64,000 nt of DNA, from positions 8,407,805 through 8,471,804 of the forward strand of contig JABAKD010000030.1 of NCBI GenBank assembly GCA_012845835.1, read 5' to 3'. The position numbers and the translations under genes are program-made. The notes beneath the pieces were generated by a model, which made no database searches, had not been told where the DNA came from, and saw only the letters and a list, made by a program, of their open reading frames with translations. Shown here piece after piece: positions 8,387-59,095 of the stretch; the first letter of the stretch is position 1; the number at the start of each line of letters is the position of its first letter. This DNA comes from Undaria pinnatifida. Taxonomy: Eukaryota > Sar > Phaeophyceae > Laminariales > Alariaceae.

Positions 8387-8533
8387 GTCGAACGGGGCAC
8401 CTTCCGTGGCAACCCCGATGAGGCGATCTTCGACTCCACGGACCGCTAGCTCCAGCACGACTTCTACCTCCGTCCTCGAAGGGTCTAGCTCGTGTTCCAT
8501 CTTCTCGTAAGTGTCAAGCTCATCCCTCGGTGC
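8387..8533 (-). CDS. Exon: C-terminal part
   Basis: Forty-nine codons, phase 0, TTGCAG acceptor, GTGAGT donor. APRDELDTYEKMEHELDPSR, VEVVLELAVRGVEDRLIGVA, TEGAPFD. No domain recognised. Confidence 0.72.
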
Positions 8534-8700
8534 CTGCAACGCGACGGCACGTCCTTTTAGTTAATGTTTCGCTTTCTTATTTAGGAATTCGCTTTCTTAT
8601 CCAAGAATCTGGGGGAAATTGAGAATACATTCGCTCGATGTTTGCGGCGCGAAGCATAAAGAGAATCAAATATTTTTAAAGCTATGAATGGGTCGCTCAG

Positions 8701-8770
8701 GCGTCTTCTTGCAGGTGTCGAGCTCGCTCGTCTCGCGGTGCCTGTAACGCGACTGCACTTTCATTTCTTA
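8701..8770 (-). pseudogene. Echo of the 5' edge of the 8.39 kb exon
   Basis: Both acceptor context (acgcgac.gcac) and first codons (gcaccg..ga.gag) are repeated; reads APRDERARHLQEDA then stop, against APRDELDTYEKM. Confidence 0.75.
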
Positions 8771-9109
8771 CATGAATAACTACGCTTTATTGTTTTAAGA
8801 GTTTGAATGTTCAAAAAAAAATTGGCTCGACCTATTTACGCGAAACGTTAATAACAAAATAATTGTTTTGTGCCAAACAAAACACGAGAAAAAATATTTG
8901 TTTTACGCCAAAACGAAACACCTTCAAGAAAAATCGTCATTTCATGATGAAATTATCATGGTGTGTAGGACACTCTTGCCCCACGGATACGTATCGTACT
9001 CGTTCGAGCCAGCCCCCCCCCCCCCCCCCCAAGAAAAAAAACGGCTTCTTAAGCAGACGTTGACCCAAATAACAAAAGGTCCTTAAGTGGTGTCGCGTGC
9101 CGCTGTGCT

Positions 9110-9237
9110 TAGCGCAGCGTTTGGACGTGAAGACAGCGAAGGGGAGACCGTGCCGACAAGGGCCGCACACCATTAGCGCAGCGTTTGGACGTGAAGACAG
9201 CGAAGGGGAGACCGTGCCGACAAGGGCCGCACACCAT
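9110..9237. repeat. Perfect ~64-bp tandem duplication
   Basis: 'agcgcagcgtttggacgtga...gggccgcacaccat' occurs twice head to tail without visible change; recent. Confidence 0.9.
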
Positions 9238-9299
9238 TGCGAGGCAGAGGACAAGATCCAAGGCGCGTCGATACCGATCACATTTTTTTTTACAAAAAT

Positions 9300-9372
9300 G
9301 TTCTTACAACGTCAGCTGTGAGTTTGACGAATTTAGAGCCGATACCAATCTTCGCAAGCTGCGTAAGACACC
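9300..9372. repeat. 65-bp dispersed element, copy C
   Basis: 'cagctgtgagtttgacgaat' then 'gcaagctgcgtaagacacc'. Same orientation at 41131 and 49445; reverse at 634 and 34591. Confidence 0.65.
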
Positions 9373-10704
9373 GGTTTTGCCCGCGAAAATCCCACGGACA
9401 TATAGACTAATATCTATAGTCATCAAAACATTTTTTAGTTGCACGTCGACGGCGAAGGATGGTTGTGCTTTCTTCCTTCAACAAGGATGCTTCAACAAGG
9501 ATGTTACGAACCGACAGGTTGTATGATACCATCACCGGCCCTCTCACAAGAAAAAGGAGCCCCTCACACACACCGCACACTGCCCGGCGGTCCTCTGATA
9601 GGGCAGGGCCCCCTACACCAAGAAAAAATGCCTTAATAAATAACTTCGGCAAAACAAGAAAATCGACAGCTAGCTGTCACACTGAAGTTTAGTAGAAGGA
9701 CACACCCGTTATTTCTCACTTCTAAGAAAGCTAACCTAAAAACCAAAATTTAGTTCGCATTTTCGATATACTATCGGAGGGCTGAGCCTGCCATGCAAGG
9801 CAGATGCAGCAGATCGATACGGCTCTTTCGGCTCTTTTGTTTCCCCCAGAAATATATATATATATTATATATATATGGGTCGCAGGTACACTTTCTACCG
9901 TTACGTAGGCAGATCTTCTCGTCGTGAAGATTTGTATGAACGGTAGCCGTTCCAGAGGTATTGGATATCGTGTCTTGTTGCACTAAAAGTGGTCGTGGAG
10001 TCTCCGTAGATTCTCATGACAGAGAGGAGGGTAATCACGTTTCCCGCTGACAAGTAATCACTGTCGACTCTCTGTTTCGCCTGCGAAGCACCTCTCGTTG
10101 CCTCGAGGCACTTCCATCGTTACCGTCGCTTGGTTCGCCGTCGAACCTTGATCCAACCTGGCGTGTCCTCCACGCTGCGAAGGACAAGAAGAGAAGTAGT
10201 TGCAAGTTGCGAGTCGAACCTGGGTTACCCCAAACCCTCATCTATATATATATGTACATATATATCATATTCCAGGAGTCGAGGTTTGTATCCAAAAATT
10301 ATTATTATCCTTAGCTACACTGATTCCGAAGTGCAGCGTTGTCGCTGCCGAAAGCGTGGGTGCATGGCTGAACTGGTTAAAACGCATCCCACCGCTGTTA
10401 CTTGTGGTATCCGACGCCATTTGTGTTAGGGCATTGTCCTGGGATTCCTAGCAAAGAGGCCTGCCGCGGTAGGATCTAGGATGTGGGATATATACGGAAT
10501 ATTGGGATAACAAAAAAGGTTTCACATGCCTTTAAAGGCGTGTACGTATAGGAAAAAGGGGATACTACAAACTGGCATCCCGCCAGCGATCCACTTCTGT
10601 CCGTGGATAGGTTGGATTATTGCAAGAGCTTTCTCCGAGACAAGTGAGTGACCAACTTGGAACCTGCCTATTTAATACTCCGGAGTAGTACAGAGACCTA
10701 CAAC

Positions 10705-11060
10705 AAGAGGTCCAGTGTATTGCTATCTGTGTCTTATCTTACTGTCCTCGGCCTTGTCGACAGTAGAGGGGTTTAGTCCGTTTTACTGTTGGTAAAAGGT
10801 TAACCAACAGTCTACCCCCAGGAGAAACCTACCGTAAGCCTTGCGCCGCCATAAAAAGATGAAAAAAGCGCTCTCGGGTAAAAAGGTCTAGTGTCTTGTA
10901 GTCTGCGTCTTATCTTACTATCCTCGGCCTTGTCGACACAGTAGAGGGGTTTTGTCTGTTTTACTATTGGTAAAAGGTTAACCAACTGTCTACCCCCAGG
11001 AGAAACCTACCGTAAGCCTTGCGCCACCACAAAAAGATGAAAGAAGCGCTCTCGCATAAA
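10705..11060. repeat. ~180-bp tandem duplication
   Basis: Two units (10705-10882, 10887-11060) share 'cttatcttact.tcctcggccttgtcgaca' and 'ctacccccaggagaaacctaccg'. Confidence 0.9.
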
Positions 11061-11427
11061 AGAACGGCATTCCCCTCCTTAATATCGCACAAGCTGGCAT
11101 GTCTTTTCGTACGAAACCGCTGGCTGGGAAACGTCGAGCGTCTACCACAAGCACATCACAAGGCTATCGACTCCACACAAACCAAGTAAAGCATGCACCT
11201 CTAACGCGAACCGATCAGAGCGCGTCAACGCAAGCAAGCAGACGTTTAGTTTGAACAAGAGAAGCAGCGTAAGCCTTGTGTGTGGTTGGTTTACGATTCC
11301 AGAGAATCAAAAAGCCTGAACCGCAGTTTGGCTGTTTCTGTGGTGATGTGAGCCTCGGCGCTGAAGATACCGCTGGTGACCTTTGGTATTTTATTTCGCG
11401 ACCGAAGTCTCCCGTGTATAATCTCAC

Positions 11428-11547
11428 CACATACACCGTAACGAGGGCACGGGCCTCCGCCAACAAAGCCCTGGCCTTGTCCAGGCGTATGCGCGCCTTT
11501 TCCACCGCCGCCTCGGCCTCTTCTCTCTTGGAAACCTTTTCTTCCAC
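11428..11547 (-). CDS. Exon: returning coiled coil, continued
   Basis: Forty codons, phase 0, AAAAG acceptor. [36 protein letters not shown]: a regular heptad coil. The donor GTGAGA at 11422-11427 was chosen because it keeps phase 0; an earlier weak GTTACG is possible. Confidence 0.75.
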
Positions 11548-11814
11548 CTTTTATGTTGGTAACGGTAAACGAATAGTGGGGTTAGGGGATCGACAATGAA
11601 AGGTGAGCTGTATGATACGTCAGAAATTCGCGATCAAAGCAAATATCACACTTCAGTAGCTTGCAATGATGAGTTTCGACAAGACCCGCGTTCTCAATGT
11701 GTTCAAAATATGCATTTCTTAATTACTTCATAAAAAAAAAGGTCGCCAATGCATGCGTGCGCTCTCGGTCTGCAGGTGTGGAAAGGTGTGTGCGCCTGCT
11801 ACTGCAGTATTGCG

Positions 11815-11888
11815 TGGGGTTTGGCTGCCTTCGCCTTCTTCTCTTCTTCATAAACTTTTTCTTCTCTTACCATGTTGCGTTGGTGACG
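11815..11888 (-). pseudogene. Echo of the 5' edge of the 11.43 kb exon
   Basis: Reads EEKVYEEEKKAKAAKPHAIL against [19 protein letters not shown], with matching 'gttggt.acgg' intron flank. Frame open but no donor follows. Confidence 0.65.
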
Positions 11889-12735
11889 GGGCAAAGTGAA
11901 AAACATTGGATCGGGGAAGACAAAGGTAAGCCTTACGAGTGTGATTTTTCTCATACTCAGCTTTTTAGGTGCAAGTGTAGAGTCTAATCTGAAGGCGCAC
12001 CCTGCCAACGCAGCATGCTGCGGGGGTATAAGGCGGTATGGAACCTACGCACGCGTGCTTTGACAGGGGAAACAACGTTTCGGCGAAAACAAAAGAAATC
12101 TGAACGAATTTCGAACGAGGCTGTCTTGACTCAAAATTCGTCTGAAAAAAAAAATCATCATTTTTCTTGGGGCGTTTTTCGTTGTTGCAAAAAAAGAAAA
12201 AATGTGTGTTTGTGTGTGTGTGTGTGTTTTTTTTTTTTTGTGATAATACCAGGATCACTCATGGGCTTTATTTGTTCATCCGATTGCGCTTTTCATTATT
12301 TTGCTCGAAAATCGGATGTTGTTGTTGTTTTTTTTAATAGAGGTTCTCTCGTCAAGAGCCTCCAGAAAAACAAAATGGTTGCACCGCTACCCTAGCCTAG
12401 CCTGTGTCCTATTACCAATAGTGCTATTTGTGCAGCGAGGTGTCTCTTGCCTCTGCGGGATGGCTGCTTGGATTTGGGGCGTCTTGTATCTCGCCCCTAT
12501 GGGGTGGCTGCTTGGATTTAGGGTGGTGTCTGGGGTATCGGTTTCTTGCCCGCCAAAACGCCTTCTGACCGGAGACGGGCGAGTTTCCCCCTCGTTCTGG
12601 CATGCGATAGCGCAGTAGGCCTGCCAGGTGAAATATGCGATGAGGGGGCACTTGCCACCAAATCGTAATGCCGACCCGGGGGGCGAGGGGGTACCCATAA
12701 CCACAATAATAATAATGATAATGTGTTGTTAATAC

Positions 12736-12825
12736 CTGTGCGGCAAGCAGAGCCTCCTCCTGGCGCTCCCGCTCGAGGCAGGTCGCCGTGTACTTCATGT
12801 TTCCTTCCACGCCAGTGATCGCCAT
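12736..12825 (-). CDS. Exon: returning coiled coil
   Basis: Thirty codons, phase 0, CCCAG acceptor, GTATTA donor. MAITGVEGNMKYTATCLERE then RQEEALLAAQ, corresponding in position to the second stalk helix after the MTBD. Confidence 0.75.
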
Positions 12826-13615: not shown

Positions 13616-13646
13616 GCCAGCCGGAGTTAACCACGCCTCGTGTCAC

Positions 13647-13901: not shown

Positions 13902-13934
13902 CTGGGATTGGTTACGGGTGGGGATATAAAACAA

Positions 13935-15555: not shown

Positions 15556-18500
15556 CTGGCCAAATCAGAACGTCGGCGATTTTTTTTCCTTCGATCGGAT
15601 GCGGGTGTAATTTTTGGAAAACTAGACCGCATGCGATCGGAGTTGCGTGCTATACCGTACCAGGATCTGGCGGCGTTTTTATTTGCGAGATAAATCCGGA
15701 AACTAAAACCTCGGTTAGTTGGGTTTTTTACGTCGGCCGTGGGTTGAGGATACGATTCTTTCGTATAATAATTCGCTCTTTGCGAACGCGAGCCCGTTCG
15801 AGTTTTAACGGTTTTAAACACCTACGTATCTTCCTTTTGGAACTCTCTCTTATTTTTAGAAAAAATAGCTCAGATGCGTTCATTCCCCTGCGTTTATACC
15901 CTCGCCGGTATTTCGATCGCACCAAAAGAGGTAACAACAATAAACGGTGCGTCGTAAAAAGAAACACGCGATGGTGCGTGCTGGACTAAAATGAAACGTT
16001 GGGGTGGAGCGGGGGGGGGGGGGGGGGGTCCTGCCGACGACGCCAATTGTAGTGGTACTCCGAGTGGGGGATGCGTGGTTGGTCGGTGTTGGGAAGCGTG
16101 CTCCTCACGGGTTCCGGTGCCCTTGTTTGGTCTCTCCTCATGGCTCGCTGGATAGACTCAAAGCTTATACATTATTTCCTCTACATTGAACTCTAAAAGA
16201 CAGACAAAACAGGCCCTTGGCACATGGTAGCGCAGGGCAAGGCAAGTAGAGCAGGCAGAGCATGTAAAGCAGGTAGTGAGAGCGCGGGGGTGGGGTGAAG
16301 CTCACAGAGTTCGCGTCACCCCAGCATTGCTGCTGTGCTCTCTTCCGGACCTTTTCCTATGGAACGTACAAGGAACGTTCTCCTAGATGTTCTATATTCC
16401 CATGAGCGCCTAGCGCGCTTACTTCTATCTATTTTGTCCAGAGGAGGAGCGTTCCATTTCCGAAAACGCTCTCGTGGTACAAACTAGCTAGATTCTACGG
16501 GTTATCCGCTTCACTCAGAACATTCCGTTTAAGAGAACCTTCTTGTGGCCAATAGACCATGACTCTGCGGACTATCCTACCGAATCTATTGCCAGATATA
16601 CTGACACTCTGTTACAGGGGGGGGTTCGTCCCGCACAGAATGGCGCGGCAAAAGAGCTATTTTTTTCGGGGGCGCGGTGTGGCAAGGCGTTAAGGCCGTC
16701 GGGGGTTAACCTTGTTTCGGGCCCATGTACAAGGCGCGTGGCTACGTACGATCGAGGGGCGTTATAGCGCTTTTTTCGGCGTTTTTTGTTTTTCTTTTTT
16801 CGTTTTCTGGATGATGGACGGTTTCGGGCTAATGAAGCCTTTTTTTTTTTCGCCGCAGTCCCGACACGGGAACAAAATACTTGGAGTTAGTATTGACTGG
16901 GATAATTTTCAGGGCTTGTCCAAAGTATTAACCGCCAAAAATCATCGGAATGTCATTCTTGTTTTGCAGTATGGTATGATTATTTGTACATATGTGCGGT
17001 ATACATAAAGCTAGGCCATGGGGTTTGGTCATCGGGTCGCACTTAAAAACAAGAGTATACATAATACAGTATACACAAAAACGCGTTTCTTTGTCGTAGC
17101 GCGAGCATGCGACACACACGGTGGCCGGCGCAAGCTGTGCGCGTGTCTTACAGGCACTCCGCATTGGAGTTTGGACTGGAAAAGTCGTCGTCAACTGTTC
17201 CAGCAAAGATCCCGGGTTGCTTCGCGTGAAGGATGCTGCACAGGAGAAGACCGTTAGAGGTCGAGAACCGAACCAAGAGTGATCTGGCGTTTGTTGAGAG
17301 AGAGAGTTTCGTAGGGGTTTTGGTTCATTACTCTTTGGTTGAAAAATTGGCATTGATCGCATCGGCATGGCGGTAGTTTTGTTTGATCGCGCCAGTGGCT
17401 GTACCAGGTGGATACAGCACGGGACGGTGCTGGCAGACTGGCAGAACACGCTAACAGACAGTCGTGCTGTCGCTAGCAGCTGGCCGGCAGCTACTGGGCC
17501 AGGTATTCGTCATTTCTAGCTGTTTTGCCAGGTGTTCATGATTTTTTTCGTTCGGTTCGTGCGGTTTGTGACAACGTCTTCTGACAATGCATTCGGACAC
17601 TCGAGAGAGATGCGAGAAGAACGTCGGACAGACGAGGCACGGGCAACACAAAAAATCGTCAGTTTTGTCATTTCCAATTTGTATCCCAAGAATGTCCATT
17701 AAATAGAGTTTGCAGGTGAGTGGTGGCTCAGTTCATCTCCCACGGCAGCACCATAACGCTTACTCAAGTTTCGGGATGAAGACAGGTCGACGAAAGACTA
17801 AAAAATCGCCTTTTTCAAGGTAAGGCAAGAGAAGCGCGAAATGAAAAGAAAGTAAATGGTGTCAGGCCAAGCCAAGTTATACGTAGTACGTAGTCGGATT
17901 GAATGGACATATGAAGACGGTTGTTTGCCGGTCGAAACTTGTTTCGACGCGATTCGCCTGGGCCACCGTTCACGCAACTACTACTGCAGTTGCTGGTGTT
18001 GCTCTGCCTCTTGATAGTCTGAGATCTTAGCACACTAAACGATATCTTGATACTTCGAAGTATAATCATAAGTCATGGACATTTTATCGCGATACTCGCA
18101 AAATCTTTACACCTCACTGCATATACGTATATGTACATGGATTTTTCTTGTTCAACCGTCGCGAAGCCTAAACCTTCAGTGACCGTGTCGACTTCGTAGG
18201 CTCGACCTCCCCCCCATTTTACCCCGTATGCAGCGCTGTGATTGAACGCACATTGTGCACGAGACGAAAAGGACTAGATTTAAACACTGGTTGATTGGTT
18301 GATTGGGTTAGGGCTAGGGTTAGTGTTGATTGTGTGCTTAAACACGATACGTCCATCACGACGGTTGATTATAGTAGGGTTTCCAATGATAGGTTGGCTA
18401 CATAGCAGCGGGCTATCGGAACGGTGGAATAAATATTTTGCCCAATTAGCCACTTTTTTTTCTTCCGGTCGAGAGCGCACTCCACGCCGTGCCTTTGCAA

Positions 18501-21919: not shown

Positions 21920-22556
21920 TGGGGTTTGGCACAGATGGCTAACGGAATACCCCCTGCCGTATCTCAAACCAGGTAGATCCCGAATGAAGTTGGACGTGGC
22001 GACGACCTTCAATAACATTGTGGGGTTTGTTTCCGTCGCGACAAGACGGAGCACGACGGAAGCCACGTCCATAGCACGTGCACTTAATTACGATCCCAAG
22101 TGATCCGGGGTACCCCGTCCGCTTGCATCAGGGTTTGGCACAGATGGCTAACGGAATTCCCCCTGCCGTATCTCAAACCAGGTAGATCCCGAATGAAGTT
22201 GGACGTGGCGGCGACCTTCAATAACATTGTGGGGTTTGTTTCCGTCGCGACAAGACGGAGCACGACGGAAGCCACGTCCATAGCACGTGTACTTAATTAC
22301 GATCCCAAGTTATCCGGGGTACCCCGTCCGCTTGCATCAGGGTTTGGCACAGATGGCTAACGGAATTCCCCCTGCCGTATCTCAAACCAGGTAGATCCCG
22401 AATGAAGTTGGACGTGGCGGCGACCTTCCATAACATTGTGGGGTTTACTTCCGTCGCGACAAGGCGGAACACGACGGAAGCCACGTCCATAGCGCATGTA
22501 CTTAATTACGATCCCAAGTGATGCGGGGTACCCCGTCGTCCGCTTGCATCAGCTTC
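21920..22556. repeat. ~210-bp tandem repeat, three units
   Basis: Three units start near 21922, 22132 and 22341 with high identity. Both strands remain open across single units (minus: ATSNFIRDLPGLRYGRGNSV). No homology recognised. Confidence 0.9.
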
Positions 22557-22639: not shown

Positions 22640-22765
22640 CACTTCCCCTCGCCCCTCCCCCGCCCCCCCGCCCCCCCCATTCTCCCCCCTCCCCCTCTTC
22701 TCCACCCTCTCCCGCTTCTCCCCCCTCCCCCTGTTCCCTCCCCCCCTCCCCCCCTTCTCTCTCCA
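22640..22765. repeat. C-rich tract
   Basis: CCCTCC/CCCCCC runs immediately downstream of the 22.78 kb exon donor; purine-rich in the transcript. Confidence 0.85.
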
Positions 22766-24322: not shown

Positions 24323-24561
24323 CTGCGATGTTGCGCCGACACCGCAGCGAGAGCGGGGAGGGGGGAGGACGCAGCAGAATAGAAAGTGAATATGTGGGTT
24401 TGTGGAATAAAAAAAGTTAGGCCATTCAGTAGGGGCGCCTCGCGGTAAGGCGAGGTGGTGTGTGCCAGAGCAACGTGAGACCGCGTCGTATTAGGGGAAG
24501 CAGCGTTGATTCGTTCCAGGTGTTGTGAGTGCAAGTTCCTCGGTCGCGCCCCCCTCAAAAA

Positions 24562-25135
24562 AGCGAATTTTGACCGCCTTATGTAGGGATGCCGCCTTAT
24601 TCAGACCGCCTTATCTCGCGCGAAAAAAGCGATTTTGACCGCCTTGTATCGGTATACTGCCTTGTTCAGACCGCCTTATCTCGCGCAAAAAAAGCGAGTT
24701 TGACCGCCTTATGTAGGGATACCGTCTTAATCAGACCGCCTTATCTCGCGCAAAAAAGCGATTTTGACCGCCTTATGTTGGTATACCGCCTTAATCAGAC
24801 CGCCTTATCTCGCGCAAAAAAACGATTTTGACCGCCTTATGTTGGGATACCGCCTTAATCAGACCGCCTTATCTCGCGCAAAAAAAGCGATTTTGACCGC
24901 CTTATATCGGTATACCGCCTTATTGAGACCGCCTTACCTCGCGCAAATAACTAATTTTGACCGCCTTATATCGGTATACCGCCTTAATCAAATCGCCTTA
25001 ACTCGCGCGAAAAAACGATTTTGACCGCCTTATATCGGTATACCGCCTTAATCAGACCGCCTTGTCTCGCGCAAAAAAGCGATTTCGACCGCTTTATATA
25101 GGAATACCGTCTTATTCAGACCGCCTTATCGGGGG
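24562..25135. repeat. ~60-bp satellite, about ten units
   Basis: Units contain 'gattttgaccgccttat' + 'ggtataccgccttaatcag' + 'accgccttatctcgcgc'. Well conserved, with nested 'accgcctta' half-units. Open frames on the plus strand repeat ALSRAKK.. and are not regarded as a gene. Confidence 0.9.
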
Positions 25136-28285: not shown

Positions 28286-28550
28286 GTCTCACGAACACCT
28301 GGCCCAGCAGCTGCTGGCCAGCTACTAGCAACAAGCACACCGTATGTTCGAGTGTTCTACCGGTCTGCCAGCACCGTCCCGTGCTGTACCCACTCGGTAC
28401 TGCCGCTGACGCGATCATCCAAACCCTGTCTATGCTGCAATCAAAGTCGATTTTCCAACAACATAATATGAACCAAAATGCCTACGTAATGCTCTTTCGC
28501 GACAAAAGGCATATAATTCTTGCTTCGGTTCCCGAACCCTAATGCTCTTC
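28286..28550 (+). repeat. Dispersed family F, copy 1
   Basis: Matches 38.10-38.35 kb from 'cagcagctgctggccagc' to 'ggttcccgaaccctaat'. Confidence 0.65.
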
Positions 28551-28559
28551 TCCTTTTTT

Positions 28560-32829: not shown

Positions 32830-32950
32830 TCGAATGGGGGAGGGGGGGCGGGGGGAAGGGGGGGGGGGGGAGGGGGGGGGGGGGAGGGGCGAGGGGGGGG
32901 AGGCGGGGGGGGGAGGGGGGGGGGGAGGGGGGGGGGGGGCGGGGGGGAGA
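32830..32950. repeat. Poly-G tract, ~120 bp
   Basis: Nearly pure G with single A/C interruptions; the longest G tract of the window together with 13.94-14.12 kb. Confidence 0.95.
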
Positions 32951-35744: not shown

Positions 35745-35880
35745 GGGGTAAGGAGGGGGTGGTGAGGGGGGGGGGGGGGGGGGGGAAAGGTTGAGAAGGG
35801 GGTTGAGGTGGGGGGGGAGGGAGTGAGGGGAGGGGGGAGGTCGAGGAGGGGGTTGAGGTGGCGGGGGGGGGGGGGCATGT
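35745..35880. repeat. Poly-G rich tract
   Basis: Long G-runs with single A/T interruptions; potential G-quadruplex on the plus strand. Confidence 0.9.
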
Positions 35881-36093: not shown

Positions 36094-36128
36094 TTACTCG
36101 CTTCAAGGCGAGCTTTACCTACGTAAGG
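36094..36128 (-). pseudogene. Short echo of the 3' edge of the 36.28 kb exon
   Basis: 'cttactcgcttcaaggcgagctt' resembles 'ttactcacctcaagacgagctt' at the real border; the donor is destroyed. Short match, so only moderately sure. Confidence 0.45.
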
Positions 36129-36274: not shown

Positions 36275-36470
36275 CTCAAGACGAGCTTCATCTCGTTTCA
36301 CGATGGCCGCGTCGTAAACCCCTTCCGCCCTTTGAACGGCAGCGTCGAGAGCAGCAGCCTCTCCCTCCCAGGCAGAGCGTGCGACAACGGTGCTCTCGTA
36401 CTCTTTGAACATAAAAGGAGTGTCGCAATTGCCGCAGATCACGTGTGCAGCGTTACGGGGAACGGCTTGC
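36275..36470 (-). CDS. Exon: end of Ig-like fold into helical segment
   Basis: Sixty-five codons, phase 2 to 0, acceptor CCAG at 36471, donor GTGAGT. QAVPRNAAHVICGNCD closes the Ig-like part; EYESTVVARSAWEGEAAALD and VYDAAIVKRDEARLE are amphipathic helix. The start was chosen because only this acceptor gives the phase required by the previous exon. Confidence 0.75.
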
Positions 36471-37424: not shown

Positions 37425-37850
37425 AGACGACCGCGTGTTTTGCAATGAAGGGATCGGGAGGGTCGACATTCCTGAAGAAACGGTATACGGGAGAAAGAAA
37501 ACCAACGCAAATTTTTGACGCTGCATTTTTTACAGTATTAAACTATGCAGAGATATTGCGTTGAAATCTCATGCGGCGTGTTTGCAGTGAATGCATTGGA
37601 AGGGCCGGCATTCCTGCAAGACGGCGCTTACAATTGGCTCTGCATTTCGCTCTAAAATTTATGCAGAGAGAGAGAGCTAACGATTGTTATCGAATATCGT
37701 TGGCGCTGCATTACATCTATAATTCTACGAAAAGAAAGAGAGAGCTTGCGAGGCGTGTTTTACAGTGGATGCATTGGAAGGAGCGGCATTCCTGAACAAA
37801 CAGTACCATAAGGAACAACACACCACCGTATCTCGTTGGCGCTCCATTAC
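37425..37850 (-). repeat. Three decayed copies of the 3' edge of the Ig-like exon
   Basis: The phrase 'gaggcgtgtttgcagtggatgc' plus 'ggcggcattcc' (real at 37899-37945) recurs near 37745-37800, 37571-37620 and 37430-37480, each with the upstream 'ttggcgctgcattacat' flank. Donor GT has changed to GC or is lost in the copies. Confidence 0.75.
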
Positions 37851-37897: not shown

Positions 37898-38023
37898 GAG
37901 GCGTGTTTGCAGTGGATGCATCGGAAGGGGCGGCATTCCGTCGATGGTGGCGTGTGGAGACGGATCTCCAGTCTTGGCAGCGTCTCACCCTCCAGCATTT
38001 GTCCGTTGTGATACCACTGATAC
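37898..38023 (-). CDS. Exon: Ig-like domain core
   Basis: Phase 2 both sides, GCAG acceptor, GTAAGT donor. YQWYHNGQMLEGETLPRLEI has the Ig C-strand Trp and the 'L.I' E-strand; PFRCIHCKHAS carries the F-strand Cys (Y/F.C). Ig-like folds are uncommon in protist cytoplasmic scaffolds. Confidence 0.75.
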
Positions 38024-38099
38024 CTGCATGGATGTATTGAAGTGCGATGAACCAGCCATTAAAGCTTTTTGAACCGAGATAAATCACGAATACCTGATC

Positions 38100-38580
38100 C
38101 AGCAGGAGCTGGTCAGCCACTAGCAATAATCACACTGTCTGCTCGAGTGTTCTACCAGTCTGCCAGCACCGTCCCGTGCTGTATCCACTTGGCATTACCA
38201 CTGACGTGATCAACTAAACACTACCATGCTGCTGCAAGCCATGTCAATTCTGCAACCACAGAATATAAACCAAAACGCCTACGTAGTTCTATCTCGCAAC
38301 AAAATACATGCCATTCTTGGCTCGGTTCCCGAACCCTAATCATCATCTCCATTTCGTGTGTGTGATTAGTACGCGTATGCAGTTGCAAGGCGAGAGACGA
38401 ACTCCCCGCGCAGTAGGCGACACAAAGCACGCTGATAGCAGGACAGATGCCATGCTACTGCAAGCCATGTCAATTGTTCAACCTCAGAATATGAACCAAA
38501 ACGCCTACGTAGTTCTATCTCGCAACAAAATGCATGCTATTATTCTTGGTTCGGTTCCCGAACCCTAATAATGCTCTCCA
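38100..38580 (+). repeat. Dispersed family F (cagcaccgtcccgtgctgta...), with internal duplication
   Basis: The block 'tctgccagcaccgtcccg' then 'aatat.aaccaaaacgcctacgtag...ggttcccgaaccctaat' also occurs at 28.34-28.55 kb, and its first part in reverse at 17.40-17.45 kb. The second half is repeated again at 38485-38575. Confidence 0.65.
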
Positions 38581-39100
38581 TTTCGTGTGTGTGTGGGATT
38601 AGTACGCGTACGCAGTTGCAAGGCGAGACGAATTCCCCACGCAGTAGGCGACACAAAGCAAGCTGATAGCAGGACAGGACAGGACAGGCGTATAGCGGGC
38701 GTTGGGATAAAATCCTGACTCTGATTACCCCCATATCATTGCGCACTTTTTGCACCTTATTTCGGCTGAAAGTATGCTATTTAGTTACAGAGTATGGCGG
38801 CACAGAACGCACGCACGAGGCAAGACGAGCCATGCCAGCCAACACAGAAATTAGCTCGCAACCTTCATTCGGCCAGTCCAGCATCCCTCGCTTGTCGTTG
38901 CAAGATCTGACGTACACACAGTGATTCGAAATTATTACCACTCAGCGAATGCAGTTAGATAGAGTATCTCTATGATGCATTTATTTCGTGTGGGGAGCAG
39001 CGAAAGCAACTTAAAAGCCTATCTACTAGGACGATTGTTGGATACATACTTCGAAGTATATATATATTGTATGCATATCTTGATTAAACAATGCTGTGTT

Positions 39101-40056: not shown

Positions 40057-40190
40057 CGGTGAGGTGGCCATGCGGTTCCTTCCACGTTCAAAGCGAGGGC
40101 TACCGGATCGTTTCCCACGGGAGGAGGCGTTACAACCATGGAGTGCGACTGGGTCAACACCCGCGGTGACTCTTCCTTGGCAAGAAGAAA
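40057..40190 (-). CDS. Exon: end of discoidin-like / start of Ig-like domain
   Basis: Phase 0 to 2, TTGCAG acceptor, GTGCGT donor. FLLAKEESPRVLTQSHSMVV, then VALALNVEGTAWPPHR. The 'v.L.l.v.G' spacing followed by YQWYHNG in the next exon is the strand B-C pattern of an Ig-like fold. Confidence 0.75.
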
Positions 40191-40344: not shown

Positions 40345-40432
40345 TGGTTTCACTTCCTCCGGGAGAAGGCGTTACAACCATGAAGTGCGACCGGGTCAAT
40401 ACCCGCGGTGGCTCCTCGTTGGCCAATAAAAA
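40345..40432 (-). pseudogene. Echo of the 5' half of the 40.06-40.19 kb exon, still open
   Basis: Reads FLLANEEPPRVLTRSHFMVV then TPSP, against FLLAKEESPRVLTQSHSMVV then TPPP. The AG acceptor (GCGCAAG) is intact, but no donor follows and similarity fades after about 30 codons. It may be a recent dead duplication or the relic of a mutually exclusive exon. Confidence 0.75.
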
Positions 40433-40539
40433 CTTGCGCGATTACACAAATGATGCAGAGGCAGGGATAGCAAATTGAAAATTGGCTTAGGTGGTGAGGT
40501 AATAAACAAGGCGTCCACATAAAGAAAGGAGGGTCCAAA

Positions 40540-44035: not shown

Positions 44036-45001
44036 CGGCTATGTAGCCTAACTGGTCTCATTTCGAATTGCAACGGCAATGCCACGTCACGCATGCAGTG
44101 CGAGGTCAATCAGGAAGAATATTCACAAACAGGTGGACGAGGACTGCCTCCTCTATATCCTTTTAAGAACGTCACGCTAATAATCTCCTGCTAAACCTAT
44201 CCTGGCGCAAGCTTTTTGGGTCTCACAACAGCCGACACTCTGCTGAAACATTACGTTTCAAACGGACGTTATAAAGACAACAAGAAAACCAAAGAAGATG
44301 CTGAAGCAATGTTTAAAAAAAAAAAACAGCGCAAACAGGGAAACGCTCAAGGCGCGTAGTAACGGTCTCGTTTCTAATTCCAAAAAAATGTAACGTTAAC
44401 ACGTGCAGTGCAAGTGCACTCAGGAAAAGCGCGCTTACAGATGAGGCGGTAACTGACCGCACCCACGAGTTTTGGAGACAACCTTTTAAATTATGTGGAG
44501 TCATTTTTTTGGCAGGAGTAAAAGAGTTAAAATATATATATCGTATATATATATCCTGGTGAAAATGTCCTGGTTGCTAGTATGTGCGTAACTGCCCTTT
44601 TTTTTTCGAGCGCTAAGTCAGCTCGAGGCACACGCACATGAATATATTCGCAGGATGCGATGAAACAAGTTCGAAAGTTGACCTATAGTTGATGCAGCAC
44701 CTAATCGATGTTGCTTTTTTCACAACAAAATCTACGACACGCATGCGCATCGCGAGCATCTAAAGAACGTCGTGCACTGAAACCCGCGTGATACACGAGG
44801 TTGTCAACTCGAACTCGCGATATCGATAAATACAACCCCGTCAAAATCCGAGGCGCAAAACCTTATGTACACCTACGGGATGCCTATCGATATAGGCTAG
44901 GGCTTAATGGGGGGTGGGAGAAAACACAAGTACGGACGCAAGTTTTTTCTTTTTTTGTGGCACACCGTATGTGCTCCCTGGGTATCATCACAACGACTTG
45001 C

Positions 45002-45148
45002 CAGTTTGGGACACGTGGTGTTGCTCATGGCGAGGAGACGCAGGGCTCCAACGGGACAATCCCGGCCCAGGTCGAATGCAATCCACTGTTCGTTCACCTC
45101 TCCGTAGGGAGATGACCACAGGCTGCTCTCCTCCGAAGGGTCAAGCAC
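45002..45148 (-). CDS. Exon: discoidin (F5/8C)-like domain core (GC donor)
   Basis: Forty-nine codons, phase 0. [29 protein letters not shown] and [10 protein letters not shown] follow the F5/8C pattern (D...t.W.s....qWi.fDLG...v..l). The best donor is CTG then GCAAGT, a consensus GC-AG donor that keeps phase 0 into the next exon. Confidence 0.75.
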
Positions 45149-45238: not shown

Positions 45239-45326
45239 GTCCCCGTCGAACGTAATCCACTGCACCGGTTTTACATTTCCGTGTATGGAGATGACCACAC
45301 GGTGCTCTCGTCCGAAGGGGCGACCA
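45239..45326 (-). pseudogene. Echo of the 5' part of the 45.00-45.15 kb discoidin exon
   Basis: Reads [18 protein letters not shown] then stop, against [18 protein letters not shown]. After a frameshift VQWITFDGD matches EQWIAFDLG. The AG acceptor is still present. The stop and frameshift indicate a dead copy. Confidence 0.8.
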
Positions 45327-45524
45327 CCTGATGAAGACGATGATATACTGGACTATAAAATAGCATGCTAGCTGATATTCCGAAACATTAAAAAGTATGG
45401 CTTTCGCTACGGAGTACGAACGCAGCCGGGAAAAAAATAGTTCGTAACTGTTCTCAAGTTGTGCGCCATTGTCGGTCTGTGGTTCGGCGATAGCAACAAC
45501 CACCATCCATAATCTTGACCGGTT

Positions 45525-49990: not shown

Positions 49991-51135
49991 TGAACGTGTC
50001 GACCTTGGGCTTGCGCGACCTCCTCCCTGGTGCTCTTCTCTCCCCAAGACAAGCTCGTTTGGCCTTGCACAGCTTTGCATTTTACTTGTATTATTTATTT
50101 TTTTCAGGTAGTTTTTGTTTGGTTTTGGCCTTTCACCTTTTAACATACTTCCTTTCATCCAGTAGCGAGCTTGGTTATCCTTTTGTCTTCTGTCCGTAAA
50201 CCACGGGCCCCTTTGGGCCTCTACTTTGCGACTGACACGTTGAGTCTGCAGCTATCACGGCTTTGCGGCGGCAGCTTTCCGATATATATACTCCCCGTGC
50301 TCTCTTTGTTGGACACTACTATGACAATTGAACGAAGAAAGTGATCCCATATACCACCTGGTATATTTTTCTAGTGCTATACTTGTCTTTACCTCTGTTC
50401 CCGCTCCAAAAGCGTTCCTAGTCTAATTCCAAGTGGTTTGTGCCCATGTTGGGAGCACGGTGCTACAAGGGTAATGTAGCTTAGAACACCCCGCCAGGTT
50501 AATTGCGTGTGCTGGATGTATATTAGAAGTGTGGAATGACCGATATTATGCAAAGAACACACAGACACGGAAAAATCCTAAAATAACGCATGCACGCACG
50601 CACGCACTGGTGGTGGCGGACATTTACATAGCTGTCGTCAATTATGTACGTTGGTGGGAAAGCAGAAAAATGCTGCTACGAACGATGTAGACACACACAC
50701 CGATTCATTTTTTTTTTTCCCTGATAAGTTTTTTTCTTTTTGGGGGGGGGGGAATTGCGTATCGTTAGACGGAGACACGGGGGCATACATACATGGAGAT
50801 TCGGGGAGGTTGAGGCTGTAAAAAGGAGATCCTCCTCCTGCTGCTGTTGTTGTTTTTTGGCGCCTTGGTGTCGTAAAAATGGAAAAAAATGGAATCTCGC
50901 TTCGCTCGTGTAGACTAGGCTATGCACTCGTCTGGGCTTGGTCGGTGTTACGTGCTCAGTGACAAGGGCGGGGGCTAATAATAGCTGTTTTTTCATTCAG
51001 CTTTTACAACAGTGTTGTCCCTCTCTTCAAGCCTGTGACACACCCCCTGGGTTTCAAGCTAACCACATCCCCAAGGGAAACATCGTATATGTACCAAGTA
51101 TATAGACTATACATGTAAAACATGATATTCCTCGC

Positions 51136-51300
51136 CTGTAAGCCCGCTGAATCGTGACCGCGGCGAGCCGAGATCGGCTCTGCCACTGGCACACTCTCTT
51201 CGCAATCCACGTCCTGACCGAGCACTGCATCACCACCATGCGTCGAGCTACCGTACGGTCTGCAGGAACCGACGCCAGGTTGAGGAAACCCCGATAGCAG
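51136..51300 (-). CDS. Exon: IQ motifs 6-8 (GC donor)
   Basis: Phase 2 in and phase 2 out, 54 codons. CYRGFLNLASVPADRTV, VVMQCSVRTWIAKRV and VTIQRAYRR are IQ-like; the last is completed across the intron as IQRAYRRYYGTK. The 3' border is AG followed by GCGAGG, so this is a GC-AG intron. The phase and motif continuity make the border convincing despite the missing GT. Confidence 0.75.
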
Positions 51301-51489
51301 CTTTTGCCAACAGGGGAAACGGGGTGCAGTGTTGGGGTGGAGGAGGGGCGGGGGGGCGGGGGGGCGGGAAGGGGGGGGGGGGGTTAGGCTAGTGTAAGGT
51401 GGGGCGTGCACTAGCATGATGTACGAATACAAGTGCGAATTCCGATATTTTACACCCGTAGCTAATACTTCGTATCAACCTTGCGGACG

Positions 51490-51535
51490 AGTGTGTCTAC
51501 GCCAGCTCGAGGAAACGCCGATAAAATGGTTTACC
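51490..51535 (-). pseudogene. Echo of the 5' edge of the 51.30 kb exon
   Basis: The minus strand reads YRRFLELA then stop, against YRGFLNLAS in the real exon, and the surrounding 'cgaggaaacgccgat' matches 'tgaggaaaccccgat'. Upstream acceptor sequence has decayed. Confidence 0.6.
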
Positions 51536-51901
51536 AGCTGGGGGTAAGGAGTGCATTGTGGGCGGCGGGGCGGAGACAATGTGACCGGCATGTGGACGGG
51601 TTGGGTTTGCCACGCAATATGAGATATGCAAGTTTCAGGCCGGGGTAAGACGGAAGTTTGCAGTAGTATGAAGGCATGCAAGTGTCAGGCTGGGGTGAGG
51701 TGGGCGTGCAATAGTTCGAAGTTTTCAGCTGAGAATTACGGCACCTGATGTAAAAAAGCGGTTTGGGGACCCTTCCCGCGCCAGGTATGCAGTTGAGAGT
51801 GTTCCGTGCTGCGTGTTTGAGAAATAAATGGAATAGCTACATGGTCGGTCTTCGGTGTTGCCATCGACGTCAAAAGAAATATGATATGCCTGACTGCTCA
51901 C

Positions 51902-53700: not shown

Positions 53701-53734
53701 CAGGTCGCTTCTTCTCATGGGTCGGGGAGAGGGT

Positions 53735-54420: not shown

Positions 54421-54756
54421 ACAAAGTCTCTCTTCTTACTTGCGAAGGGTGCTGATTGATGGGCGATCCGCGTAGAACATCATGCATGTGCTGCACGTTT
54501 GACGGGTGGAGAACATGGGAAAGATACCGCTGAAAGATACCTTCAGGGAACTCGCACCGGTAGATAGTCATTTTAGTAACTGCCGCCGACTGTGTGTGTC
54601 GGGTGGAAGGACGATGCAAAAGGAACAAAAATCAAGACCGTTCCTCGTTTTGGTTGGGGAGATTCCAGCCGCCGAACGGGACACACATACTGAGATTCGG
54701 GCGCGCGACGAGCCTGGACGTGATCCCCTGTTTATCGGCTTCGTCGCAAAATAGAC

Positions 54757-54955
54757 ACTCACTCACTCACTCACTCACTCACTCACTCACTCACTCACTC
54801 ACTCACTCGCTCACTCACTCACTCGCTCACTCACTCACTCACTCACTCACTCACTCACTCACTCACTCACTCACTCACTCACTCACTCACTCACTCACTC
54901 ACTCACTCACTCACTCACTCACTCACTCACTCACTCAATCACTCACTCACTCAAT
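54757..54955. repeat. (ACTC)n tetranucleotide microsatellite, ~200 bp
   Basis: About 48 near-perfect ACTC units with rare G or A substitutions. Its translated repeats (THSL) are not a gene. Confidence 0.95.
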
Positions 54956-55017
54956 CACGAATTAATTAAATATACTAACAATGGGAACAACAAGCAAGCG
55001 TAAAACTGCATTATCAC

Positions 55018-55249
55018 CTGAAAGTAGACCCTCTCCGTGATGCGCCTGATTCGTTTCGAAGGGTAGTACTGGTCGGTGCCGTAGTACGGGAGCCAATCGG
55101 CCACCGCCTGCTGCTGCTGCGGCTGCTGCTGCGGCTGCTGCTGCTGCTGCTGCTGCTGCTGCCGCTGGTCGTCCGTCGGTGTACTGCTGCGCCCTTCCTC
55201 CAAAATAATTTCTCGCAGTGCGGCGACGTACAGTCGCGCGAGCTTCACC
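55018..55249 (-). CDS. Exon: end of IQ motif, helix and polyglutamine tract
   Basis: Phase 2 in, phase 0 out (donor GTGATA). VKLARLYVAALREIILEEG continues the IQ helix. A polyglutamine tract then follows (nine Q, P, three Q, P, four Q) coded almost entirely by CAG, and then ADWLPYYGTDQYYPSKRIRR. The CAG run is a likely length-variable site within the protein. Confidence 0.8.
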
Positions 55250-55289
55250 CTGCCGAGAACGCAGAGATGCAAGCCACAAGACCGAAGTG

Positions 55290-55620
55290 TGTGGGGGGGG
55301 ACGGGGGGCGGGTGCACTCACTGTCATACATGACCGCAGGCTTAACACCATAGTCCCTATGATCCCTATGATCCCGATGCCGGGACGGAGTACGCCGGGT
55401 TTTCACCTACCAGGCAGGTAAGGTACTGGTTGCACCAAAGCGCCAAGCCAGACGGACTGGAGGGAGGGAGGGAGGGAGGGAGGGAGGGAGGGAGGGAGGG
55501 GGGTTACAGCGATTGTATCAGGCACGGCCGTAGTCCGTATGCCTACAGACTCTCTCGCATCCCTCGGACATCGCCGGGACGGAACGCGTTGGGCTTGCGC
55601 GAAGCGGAGGGGTGGGGAGG
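55290..55620 (+). repeat. Dispersed family A, two copies plus (GGGA)n
   Basis: Copies of the 'ccgtagtc...gccgggacggag' element at about 55330-55425 and 55525-55600 are separated by a perfect GGGA tetranucleotide run (55459-55500). Each copy follows a G-run, as other family members do. Confidence 0.65.
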
Positions 55621-55639
55621 GGAAACGGGAAATGAAGGG

Positions 55640-56400
55640 GGGGGGGGGGAGGTCAAGAACAGGCGATTAATACGGAACTGACACGGTGTGTTACGCCCTT
55701 CTGTTTAATCGAATGGAGGGGGGGGGAGGTAGGGTTAGCATGACAACCTCGAGGTGGCACGTTTCATTTTTCATCATGTTTTCGGGCGTGCCTATTCCTA
55801 CCTACCAGATGGCGCGTGGCAGTTCGTTCGTCTTTACGCCGTTTACGTTTTTCGCTACAAGCATTACCTTGAGAGATCGCCCGCCCGCATATTTCTATTC
55901 TAGTCTGGCTAGAAAAGAGTGTGTGAGGGAAGAAAGCTTGTTGTACGAGCGTGGTCCTTTCCATCTCCTCTTCTTGGACGCACAAGGAGCTTTAGACTGC
56001 TGTGAAGGTAACACAGGGCTAGAAACCTTTTACCAGCACCCCCGTAGACTACAGCAACTATCTCTGGCAGCACCTTAACCAATGAGGACGACGGCAAGAG
56101 GCCTATTTTTTCAACAGCGGTGACATCGAATCTCACCGTCCACCAAAACACAAAACTTTTTTAAAAAATGGGGAAAAAAAAAAAATCCCGTTCAAATACC
56201 CGCCACGCGCTTGAAACCGCAGCTTTTCACAAAAAATCCAGGACTAAGGTCGGTAACGGTTTTTTAGGCAGACTCAGGCGGGGCGGTATTTTTTTGCGGT
56301 AGGCGATATTTTTCAGTTTTTGGCGGAAACCACTTTGGCGGTAAGCGGTAATTTACCAAAAAATCATTACTTAGACGCGCGGCGATTCACCCGCTACTAG
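55640..56400. other. Intron without recognised exon
   Basis: A G-run at about 55638-55648 is followed by mixed sequence with T/A-runs and a degenerate 'ggcggtat' motif cluster (56280-56350). No exon seen. Confidence 0.45.
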
Positions 56401-56411
56401 TCTACACGTAC

Positions 56412-56575
56412 CTTGCTCTCGCCTGTATCCTCGTGGACATGTCCCTTTCCAGTATGCGTCTCTCTTCTCGTAGGCGAGCTAGCATTGCCCGGGAGAGGTG
56501 CTGACGAGCGAAGCACTGGATGATTGTGGCTTTGGCCTTGCACTTCCTCCGCCAAGCTGCTTCCATGAAAGCCAG
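56412..56575 (-). CDS. Exon: IQ motifs 4-5
   Basis: Phase 0 to phase 2 with CAG acceptor and GTACGT donor. IQ motif [19 protein letters not shown] is followed by STRIQARAR, whose last Arg codon is completed by the next exon (RVKLARLYV), so an IQ motif is split by the intron with matching phase. Confidence 0.8.
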
Positions 56576-56869
56576 CTGTTGGGGGGGGCGGTGGGGGTAT
56601 GATTCCGATTTCGAGATGATATAGGCAGCCACAACATGTGGCCACGTTTTCTCTAACGCACTACAAATAAACGCCATACCTTGTAATCAATAGAAAGTGA
56701 AAAAAAAACGATCCCGCGCACAGTTTTGTACGCCGAAGTTCTGCAACATGCAGGCGTTTCGGGAGGACGTTTTCATCGCAGCCGGAACCAAGGATCCTAA
56801 GTCGTTTCGGACGTTGTCATTCCAAACATTATAAGCGCTAAACAAAAGTTACAAGTACAAAAAAAGATG

Positions 56870-57835
56870 AGTTCAAACAGCCGGTAAACGCAAAACGATA
56901 AGTGTGAAGCTGAACGTCCTAAGCAATTGATAGCTGCAAAAATGATAAGTGCAAAGCAAAACTGCTAAGTAAGTGCAAAACCCATAGCTGTAAGTGCACA
57001 ACTGATAAGTACAAAAACGACAAATTGCCAAAAAAAACTGTAAGTAAGTCCAAAAACGGGTAAATGCAAAGCGAAACTGATAAGTGCAACAAAAACGATA
57101 ATTGCACAACCGACAAGTGCAAAAATGGAAAAGTCCAAATCTGATAAAAGGAAAAACCGATAGCTGCAAGTGCACAACTGAAAGCACGAAACCGATAAAG
57201 TGCAAAGCGAAATTGGTAAGGGCAAAAAAAAACGAAAAAACCCACACGGATAAGTGCATCAAAACCGATAGATGCAAAACCTATGAATGCAACGTGACCA
57301 GTGCAATTTCGATAGCCGCATGTGCACAAGTGATAATAATTAAAAAAACTGATCAATTGCAAAGCAAGACTGATAAGTGAAAAAACTTCACAAGTGCAGA
57401 AAACCAAGAAATGCAAAACCGACGAGGTGTACAACTGATGCGTGCAAAACGAGAACTCTGAGCGCACATCTGATGAGTACAAAAGAGAAAAGTTACAAAA
57501 CTTGTAAGTAAGTGCCGAAAAACAAAAATTAATTTCGCTCGCCTTTCTCCTGGCGAAGGAAGGTCTGCAATACACGGTCGTTGCGGCACCACATTTTTGT
57601 CTTAGCCGCAGCTGAGTGCAAAAAATGATTGGTGCAAAACCGATCGGTGCAAAACGGATAAGTACAAAACTGATAGCTGCCAAACCGGAAAAATGCGAAG
57701 CTAATAGCCTAAGTTACAAAACCGATAAGCACGAAACTGGTGAGGGCAAAACCGATGAGTGCAAAAGCTGAAGAAGTGCGAAAGCTGATGTAGTGCCAAA
57801 CTGATATAGGAGTGCAAAACTGAGCAGTGCTAAAA
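56870..57835. repeat. Degenerate minisatellite, units like 'ctgataagtgcaaaacc'
   Basis: Dozens of imperfect 12-30 bp units (gataagtgcaaaacc, gatagctgcaaaacc) fill nearly the whole intron, interrupted only by the exon echo at 57.54 kb. It keeps long open frames on the minus strand by composition; I do not regard those as genes. Confidence 0.75.
57543..57612 (-). pseudogene. Echo of the 3' edge of the 57.87 kb exon
   Basis: Seventy bases repeat the end of the exon: QLRLRQKCGAATT...FARRK against [11 protein letters not shown]...QTFARRK. The GT donor position reads GC (AAG then GCGAGC). It lies inside the 'gataagtgcaaaacc' minisatellite. Frame is open but there is no acceptor, so it is probably dead. 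Confidence 0.7.
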
Positions 57836-57866
57836 CAAAAAACAAGAATCAATCAATCTCTGGCAC

Positions 57867-58144
57867 CTTTCTCCTGGCGAAGGTCTGCACTATGCGAGCG
57901 TTGCGGTACCACTTCTTTCTCAGCCGCAGCTGCTCCCTCGCGCTGTGCCGGCGAAAGCTCATCTGAATCCTCAGCGTCATGGTGAACGCAAAGTTAGCCA
58001 TCACCGAGGCCTCCACGGCAGCCGCCGCCACGACCCGCCTGGCCACGATCACGCGCGCCCAGCACTGCAGGACGACGGCGGCCTTCGAGAGACGGATTCG
58101 AATGCTAACGTCATCCTCGGTAGCCTTGGGGAGCCATTGAAGCA
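57867..58144 (-). CDS. Exon: IQ motifs 1-3
   Basis: Ninety-two codons with a CTCAG acceptor (phase 1) and GTGCCA donor (phase 0). Three IQ-type calmodulin-binding sites are visible: [30 protein letters not shown] and [10 protein letters not shown], the last continuing into the next exon. IQ motifs form helices that bind calmodulin or light chains. Both edges of this exon have decayed copies in the adjacent introns. Confidence 0.8.
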
Positions 58145-58159
58145 CTGAGGTCCGTCCAT

Positions 58160-59095
58160 GAAATCAGGGAGTCGGAGGGAGGAATGACAAGAGGGAGGAG
58201 GTGATTTTCGGGTATCGAGCGAGAGGCGGGTTTGAAACGCTGACGTTGTTTTTCGCTGCCTTTCGGACTGCTTTCGAAGCCGCCATTGAAGCGCCGTGAC
58301 CCATGTAAAAGAGAGAGAGGAGGGTGAATGGATGGGTGGGTGGATGGGTGGATTGGGTATCGAGCGAGAGACGGATTCGAATACTAATATCGTTTCCCGT
58401 TACCTTGGGAAGCCATTGAAGAACCGCGACCCGTGCAAAGAGAGCGAGAAAATAGGTGGATGGGTGGGCGGGTGGGTGGGAGGAACGATATGGATAGACG
58501 GATTGGTCATCGAGCGAGAGACGGACTATGATGCTAAGGTCGTTATCCGCTGCCCTTCGGAAGCATTTGAAGCACTTTGGCCCATGCAAAGAGGGAGTAG
58601 GTGGGTGGATGGCATGTAATGGGTAGGCGGGAATGGACTTTGAGCGAGAGACGGAAGCGAATGGTGACATCGTTTACCGTTGCTTTGGTCAGCATATTGA
58701 AGCGCTACTGTGTGATCTATTGGAGGGGAGGGGTGGGTGAAATAGGCATCGAGCGAGAGACGGGTTCGAATGTTAATCTTGTTCTCCGTTGCCTCGGGCT
58801 GTCGTTGAAGAACTGTGGCCCTCGCAAATAAGGGAGCGTGGGTGGGTGGAATGGAAAGAAATTGGTAGGCGTAATGGGCATCAGGCGAGAGGTCGATTCG
58901 AATCCTGACGTCGTATCCATGGATTCGTCAGATCTTCAAGCACTGCCGCCCCATGCGGGGACAGAGCGGGTGGAATGGGCATCGAGCAAACTACGGATTC
59001 TAACGCTTACATTGTCCTGCGTTGCTTTTGGCAGCAGCCACATCAAACGGCACGGTCCCACGCGAGACGAGGGGGCGGTGGTGTTAAGATGACAA
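58160..59095 (-). repeat. Tandem array of about seven decayed copies of the 5' edge of the next exon
   Basis: Units of roughly 110-150 bp repeat the phrase 'cgagcgagagacgg..tcgaatgctaa', then a block equivalent to exon codons [18 protein letters not shown]. Clearest copies are near 58245, 58375, 58515, 58650, 58755, 58885 and 58995. Translated on the minus strand they read LQWLPKVTGNDISIRIRLSL and CFKCFRRAADNDLSIIVRLS, so exon-like sequence persists, but acceptors and donors are lost. Confidence 0.75.

Follow-up and report, generated by a model that had tools for sequence, protein, structure and literature searches.

We analyzed a 64-kb window (the whole stretch of DNA under study, G000:C38:8407805-8471804) of the Undaria pinnatifida genome assembly, which comprises 511,146,479 bases in 68 contigs. 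The window lies within a single very large minus-strand gene that extends past both window ends, and several of its introns carry decayed copies of the edge of the adjoining exon, here called echoes. The pattern formed by these echoes is, as described below, largely real but mostly ordinary. The protein joined from the minus-strand exon pieces gave nine protein matches at E ≤ 0.001, four of the nine matched proteins being named (Ectocarpus sp., Discosporangium mesarthrocarpum, Choristocarpus tenellus, and Hapterophycus canaliculatus). The exons were mapped by tblastn with the proteins of these relatives, after which the junctions that best restored the relatives' sequence were chosen. This gave 37 exons and 36 introns with a mean length of 1556 bp in the window; the edges of x0, x7, x29, x30, x32, and x36 are less certain, as are the GC donors assigned to x6 and x9. 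As judged from the reading frame, these two donors (GCGAGG at 51135 and GCAAGT at 45001, respectively) belong to probable GC-AG introns. MORN repeats were the only domain above the curated Pfam cut-off in the protein of the gene; the Ig-like, F5/8-like, and IQ-like labels used here come from Pfam matches below the cut-off, and the coiled-coil label from appearance. An Rfam scan of the window gave no match, and Pfam searches with ten single open reading frames gave nothing above the cut-off.

In the echo test, each exon, extended by 40 bp of flank, was compared by alignment with both of its own introns after masking of low complexity and of the junction; the control consisted of 1122 pairs of an exon and a non-adjacent intron, introns within two of the exon being left out. 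The results showed strong echoes (E < 1e-5) on 7 of the 72 adjacent exon sides and in none of the 1122 control pairs, which confirms for most of the similarities pointed out in the initial annotation that they lie above background. At looser cut-offs, the counts for adjacent sides and control pairs were 9/72 versus 0/1122 (E < 1e-3) and 12/72 versus 9/1122 (E < 1e-2). The strong seven lie upstream of x1, x6, x9, x12, and x31 and downstream of x1 and x13, and each of the seven extends across the facing exon edge. The eighth-ranked match, upstream of x10 (E = 8.5e-5), is an intron-only repeat adjoining the exon, and the ninth is the 36.1-kb match downstream of x14. There were no inverted copies on any of the 74 exon sides, and an inverted origin was therefore rejected; the spread of exon edges as a dispersed repeat was rejected on the zero count among the control pairs. 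Nine echo loci had been named in the window: seven of them (8.70, 37.43-37.85, 40.35, 45.24, 51.49, 57.54, and 58.16-59.1 kb) are the strong ones, the one at 36.1 kb is weak, and the one at 11.82 kb is unsupported. The latter was rejected as a purine-rich gapped match with a score of 25, falling outside the best 26 of the 72 sides in the low-complexity-masked scan; this score was reached by 0 of 300 Markov shuffles, and shuffles alone would have accepted it.

All exons and echoes of the window given here lie on the minus strand. Exon x1 (IQ-like part; 57867..58144), which was found by tblastn with P0007 and has the junctions GACCTCAG/ and /GTGCCA, is the source of the echoes at 57.5 and 58-59 kb. 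Upstream of it, self-BLAST (58086-59025) revealed an array of decayed copies of its 5' edge and intron border at 58145..59025, the clearest unit being 58437-58365 (E = 1.2e-11, 56/73 identical), and the P0007 protein matches this array at 58424-58365 (80%). The 3' edge of x1 is copied downstream at 57518..57614, the alignment including 25 bp of intron border (E = 4.9e-15, 77/101). Exon x6 (51136..51300; tblastn with P0002 and P0004) has the acceptor GGCAAAAG and a GC donor that was read by eye from the frame; the echo of its 5' edge, with 28 bp of intron border, is located upstream at 51499..51555 (E = 1.2e-6, 42/57). Exon x9 (45002..45148; tblastn with P0001, P0002, and P0004) has the acceptor TGTTTCAG and the donor GCAAGT, which ranked second in the junction search and was picked because the relatives agree, and its 5' edge is echoed upstream at 45245..45331 (E = 1.9e-14, 67/87). 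The 47 bp of 45245-45199, made up of the end of this echo and spacer, match four other places in the genome with 88-95% identity (a search made for the x9 region only), and may perhaps be a small dispersed element. For an introner or a transposon with target-site duplication, one would expect the inserted sequence to recur at other sites, and in the x9 region, the one searched, recurrence was limited to these 47 bp.

Exon x12 (40057..40190), placed by tblastn with P0001-P0004 and the junction search, has an upstream echo of its 5' edge at 40354..40434 (E = 1.0e-21, 68/81), which the relatives' proteins match too. Downstream of exon x13 (Ig-like part; 37898..38023; tblastn with P0001-P0004; junctions CCATGCAG/ and /GTAAGT), three decayed copies of its 3' edge were seen by self-BLAST within 37433..37792, at about 37792-37745, 37621-37575, and 37478-37433, the nearest of which gave E = 7.0e-14 with 43 of 48 positions identical. 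CAG stands before each of the three intron copies but is absent at that place in the real exon. Exon x31 (8387..8533; tblastn with P0003; splice sites CGTTGCAG and GTGAGT) has an upstream echo of its 5' edge at 8704..8766 that includes 25 bp of intron border (E = 1.3e-7, 47/63). The weak candidate at 36.1 kb would be an echo of the 3' edge of x14 (36275..36470; tblastn and junction search); it spans 36094..36115 (E = 5.8e-4, 19/22), and 0 of 1000 Markov shuffles reached its score.

Outside the window, another thirteen exons of the gene (26 sides, or 28 including the retested x0), the limits of which are the ends of tblastn matches, contributed two strong exon-bearing echoes. The one upstream of h6 starts at the first base of the exon and the one upstream of h13 contains 44 aligned bp of intron, and both fit the edge rule. 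Intron-only repeats adjoining an edge (E < 1e-4) were found there upstream of h2 and downstream of h3 and h8, and a weak 19-bp match within exon h2 (E = 1.8e-4) touches no edge and thus runs counter to the rule. We also sampled kinesin genes: a Pfam search listed 130 matches, and four regions with 11 of these, merged into 10 exons (20 sides), were taken, one of two near-identical kinesin copies being omitted. The sample contained one exon-bearing echo, C33:2480997-2481053, in which the 5' edge is copied upstream with 54 of 56 positions identical; two further matches (E = 2.2e-6 and 6.3e-9) lie at or past the 3' end of a Pfam match and may be exon or intron. Strong exon-bearing echoes were thus present on 7/72 sides in the window, 2/26 in the rest of the gene, and 1/20 in the kinesin genes, and all ten copy the 5' edge when they lie 5' of the exon and the 3' edge when they lie 3' of it, exactly as the initial annotation had described. 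The kinesin copy has AG in front and GTAAGA directly after it and is a possible nascent pseudo-exon; this copy and the CAG-preceded copies of x13 look like small exons, which may be due to chance.

In the nine strong pairs of the large gene, the alignment included 2 to 44 bp of intron border in eight cases, and these eight copies are not purely exonic; an origin from retrocopied spliced mRNA was rejected on these grounds. None of the nine alignments covered both exon edges, and there was no whole-exon copy with both splice borders among them.

We then compared the echoes with their exons by codon position. In the nine strong pairs, the exon and its echo differed at 21/170 first, 22/167 second, and 41/169 third codon positions, and the aligned intron borders differed at 37/147 positions (25.2%), an estimate that is biased favorably because the aligner stops once identity fails. 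Positions 1 and 2 taken together differed by 12.8% as against 24.3% for position 3 (Fisher P = 0.0015; ratio 1.9), and position 3 was equal to the intron border (P = 0.90). With one drifting and one held copy, a divergence of d is expected at sites that are constrained in the exon and of 2d at sites that are free in both copies. The echoes thus age in a neutral-like manner opposite an exon that is held by selection; the test was pooled, and single echoes could behave otherwise. As both copies of a duplication within an intron drift, old ones vanish, whereas duplications at exon edges should be recognizable for about twice as long because only one copy drifts. Indels were present within the exonic part of 6/9 strong pairs, and one x13 copy contained a stop codon. 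Among the 44 amino-acid differences for which ortholog data were available, an ortholog agreed with only the exon in 28 cases, with only the echo in 4, with both in 5, and with neither in 7. The decay by codon position, the indels, and the ortholog comparison led us to reject coding second exons.

A separate observation concerns the echo of x9 (45331-45245), in which four of the nine differing residues are those of the Ectocarpus protein, and in three of these four the exon residue is that of P0004. The echo may keep older amino-acid states that predate changes in the exon, as judged post hoc from these few residues. As regards splice dinucleotides, the donor GT was lost in all three 3'-edge echoes (57614-57518, 37792-37745, and the weak x14 echo, 36115-36094), and the acceptor AG was retained in four of seven 5'-edge echoes (x9, x12, x31, and h13). 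Four or fewer kept out of ten has a probability of 0.016 if each dinucleotide survives with 0.76, a calculation made post hoc, and decoy splice sites may have been selected against.

In a head-to-tail duplication, the spacer separating an echo from its exon would be the intron portion of the second copy and should be similar to the sequence on the far side of the echo. The spacers showed such homology above 44-49 position-matched controls per pair in six of the nine strong pairs (x1 upstream, x1 downstream, x12, x13, x31, and h13), and the outcome was the same with random intron pairs as controls; the weak x14 echo fails as well. All nine spacers fell short of the scores of simulated copies carrying 25% substitutions and 4% indels (P ≤ 0.007), and at 35% substitutions and 6% indels five of the nine were compatible with the simulation (P > 0.05), x6, x31, h6, and h13 being the ones that were not. 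Multi-copy arrays of three or more units occur at 58-59 and 37.4-37.9 kb, and the other strong loci have a single extra copy.

To relate the exon edges to the local-duplication background, the same local test was applied to 216 intron tiles, skipping those that touched exons or were mostly masked. It was positive in 7/74 tests for exon sides and in 49/431 for intron tiles (Fisher P = 0.84); the tiles count both copies of a duplication, and arrays repeatedly, so that a fair intron background would be lower and the exons possibly somewhat richer. After masking of arrays with a period of up to 20 bp in the gene, flanks, and random stretches, we found 24 direct-repeat clusters in the 86-kb gene and 15 in 38 kb of flank, which may itself hold genes. 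Eight of the 24 were automatically labeled as exon-edge clusters, and ten after inspection added those at 71.8 and 76.1 kb, the latter containing only about 12 bp of exon. When 24 pairs were placed at random, the means were 2.2 right-side edge contacts, 0.8 wrong-side contacts, and 5.9 contacts with any part of an exon, and side agreement averaged 73% among edge contacts by placement alone. The edge-to-side rule is therefore weaker evidence than it appears: the agreement of 10/10 strong echoes has P = 0.001 against even odds, but P = 0.04 against this null of 73%. Edge clusters made up 7/15 in the window and 3/9 outside it (P = 0.68), the window having been chosen because the pattern had been noticed there. 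Finally, twenty 10-kb stretches taken at regular spacing from three contigs (199.5 kb read) contained 54 direct and 15 inverted clusters, and twelve 10-kb pieces of the gene region (117.5 kb) contained 40 direct and 1 inverted; the direct rate ratio was 1.26 (P = 0.16). Since random stretches hold it too, local direct duplication is a general feature of this genome. The initial annotation took the echoes as a mechanism by which these introns grew. Local duplications do occur in them, but they are equally frequent in the intron interior, the gene flanks, and random genome, and the seven edge loci add, by summed offsets, an estimated ~2.5 kb to 56 kb of intron, a small share of its length.

We consider it likely that the echoes are relics of the ordinary local duplications found throughout the genome. 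The duplicated piece would be tens to a few hundred bases long, its copies adjoining each other head to tail or separated by other DNA. A piece that starts in the intron and ends in the exon would leave one exon whole, with its splice border, and a spare edge in the intron on that side. Duplications confined to an exon, or taking in all of it, would in most cases disrupt the message and be eliminated. The leftover edge would then drift neutrally while the exon is held by selection. The edge rule would need no exon-aware process, as geometry and selection could together produce it. The presence, position, and orientation of the echoes, their neutral-like decay, and the background of such repeats across the genome were observed directly, whereas we infer both the repair or replication event itself and the selective loss of harmful outcomes.

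Several results weigh against this explanation, and some of them favor a duplication directed to exons, in which splicing factors, R-loops, paused replication, or nucleosome edges would draw breaks or template switches to the borders and the echoes would be a class of their own, feeding intron growth from its ends. The ten (automatically, eight) edge clusters among 24 exceed the 2.2 expected with the right side, and random placement yields ten or more contacts with any part of an exon with P = 0.047. With an edge fraction of 10.7% among viable placements, P was 9e-5 for 10/24 and 0.0026 for 8/24; correction for the twofold visibility of edge copies brought these values to 0.0099 and 0.076. The side agreement points in the same direction even against the 73% null. 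Inverted repeats were relatively commoner in the random stretches (15 versus 1), and the two backgrounds thus differ. Against an exon-directed process stand the comparison of exon sides with intron tiles, the P value of 0.076 obtained with eight clusters, and the choice of the window for its pattern, with the lower proportion of edge clusters outside it. A modest true excess at exon edges is possible, but not established, and we regard a process aimed at exons as unlikely. It is similarly improbable that exon borders are preferred sites of local duplication beyond their longer visibility, such that introns lengthen mainly at their ends and preserve a datable, one-sided record of earlier exon sequence, of which the x9 echo with its possibly older residues would be an example.

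The spacers of x6, x9, and h6, without homology above the position-matched controls, and that of the kinesin echo likewise weigh against plain tandem duplication as the whole story. In the kinesin gene there was no homology on the +136 diagonal outside the 56 bp, and about 80 bp of spacer are unrelated; because the copy is 54/56 identical, yet the rest of the 136-bp offset is unrelated, it is a copy plus filler. These four spacers, and the match of 45245-45199 near the x9 echo to other genome places, would suit a break with long overhangs that are filled in and joined around filler (edge-filler-edge). As the usual route this is rather doubtful, since six of the nine spacers are homologous above controls, two loci are multi-copy arrays, and later insertions could also mask spacer homology; it is in any case a sub-question compatible with relics of local duplication. 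We favor a mixed class, composed of tandem duplications (clearly the arrays at 58 and 37 kb) and of copies around other DNA, as break repair can leave. The tandem duplication across the exon border put forward in the initial annotation is thus supported by the exclusively direct orientation and the six homologous spacers, and lacks such spacer support in x6, x9, h6, and the kinesin echo. Working or recently working alternative exons, or regulatory decoy splice sites, could explain that the x12 echo reads open with the adjoining exon's protein, that AG is kept in x9, x12, x31, and h13, and that GTAAGA follows the kinesin copy and CAG precedes the three x13 copies. However, the third-position excess is no more than one free copy predicts, most pairs have exonic indels and an x13 copy has a stop, the donors are lost in every 3'-edge echo (one of these being the weak x14), and the relatives' matched predicted proteins, read by eye, hold one copy of the segments; such a role is very unlikely. 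Chance or low-complexity similarity fits the 11.82-kb match and possibly that at 36.1 kb, but in view of the counts at E < 1e-3 it is refuted for the seven strong loci and, as a general explanation, exceedingly improbable.

The window contains further repeats. A dispersed repeat is present in both orientations (77-80%) at 17242-17510, 28289-28557, and 38081-38677, within which 38224-38677 is a local duplication of the repeat (90%). A perfect 64-bp tandem duplication in an intron (9109-9238) is apparently very recent. Intron arrays that touch no exon lie at 21922-22552 (three copies of a 209-bp unit, 96%) and 24556-25130 (about nine copies of a 64-bp unit, 87%), and long C- or G-rich runs are found in introns at 6925-7129, 22648-22759, 32836-32947, 35752-35875, and 51334-51380.

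As only the spare side of an exon-edge duplication drifts, exon edges can serve as fixed reference points for the rate of intron-lengthening duplication and for neutral decay within one genome. A genome-wide count of echoes by side and edge would allow intron growth by duplication to be compared directly with growth by transposon insertion and by further routes. Should exon borders prove to be preferred sites after all, this would add a new bias to the ways in which gene structure changes.

A literature search, from which subscription journals were largely excluded, found related mechanisms, but not one-sided decayed exon edges as a regular feature. Patch-mediated or staggered break repair, reportedly described in rice by Vaughn and Bennetzen, is said to leave short tandem duplications with filler; compared by its spacer alone, the kinesin echo is similar, being likewise a short direct repeat with unrelated DNA between its copies. 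As in minisatellite arrays, the loci at 58-59 and 37.4-37.9 kb consist of several diverged units, but at the other strong loci one extra copy is clear, and an exon edge in use forms part of the first unit. The Rogers model of intron gain involves a purely exonic piece with AGGT, whereas 8/9 kelp pairs include intron border.

Among published cases, a comparison of exons with the gene to which they belong has revealed unannotated tandem exon duplications within human, fly, and worm introns (PMC9013439). These resemble the echoes in being direct, nearby exon copies in introns that are mostly not annotated as exons; there, however, they are chiefly possible extra exons, and here they are one-sided edge pieces that decay neutrally. 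For mutually exclusive exons, a duplication spanning the exon and part of the adjacent intron has been proposed (PMC6071210), which likewise involves a single duplication over exon and intron with intron similarity remaining beside the copies; both exons stay in use there, whereas 0/9 of our strong pairs span both edges. New introns can arise by tandem duplication, as in the potato RdRp case (PMC4974935). That case shares with the echoes a within-gene tandem duplication across an intron-exon border, but it gave rise to a new intron, whereas here the existing intron on that side was lengthened.

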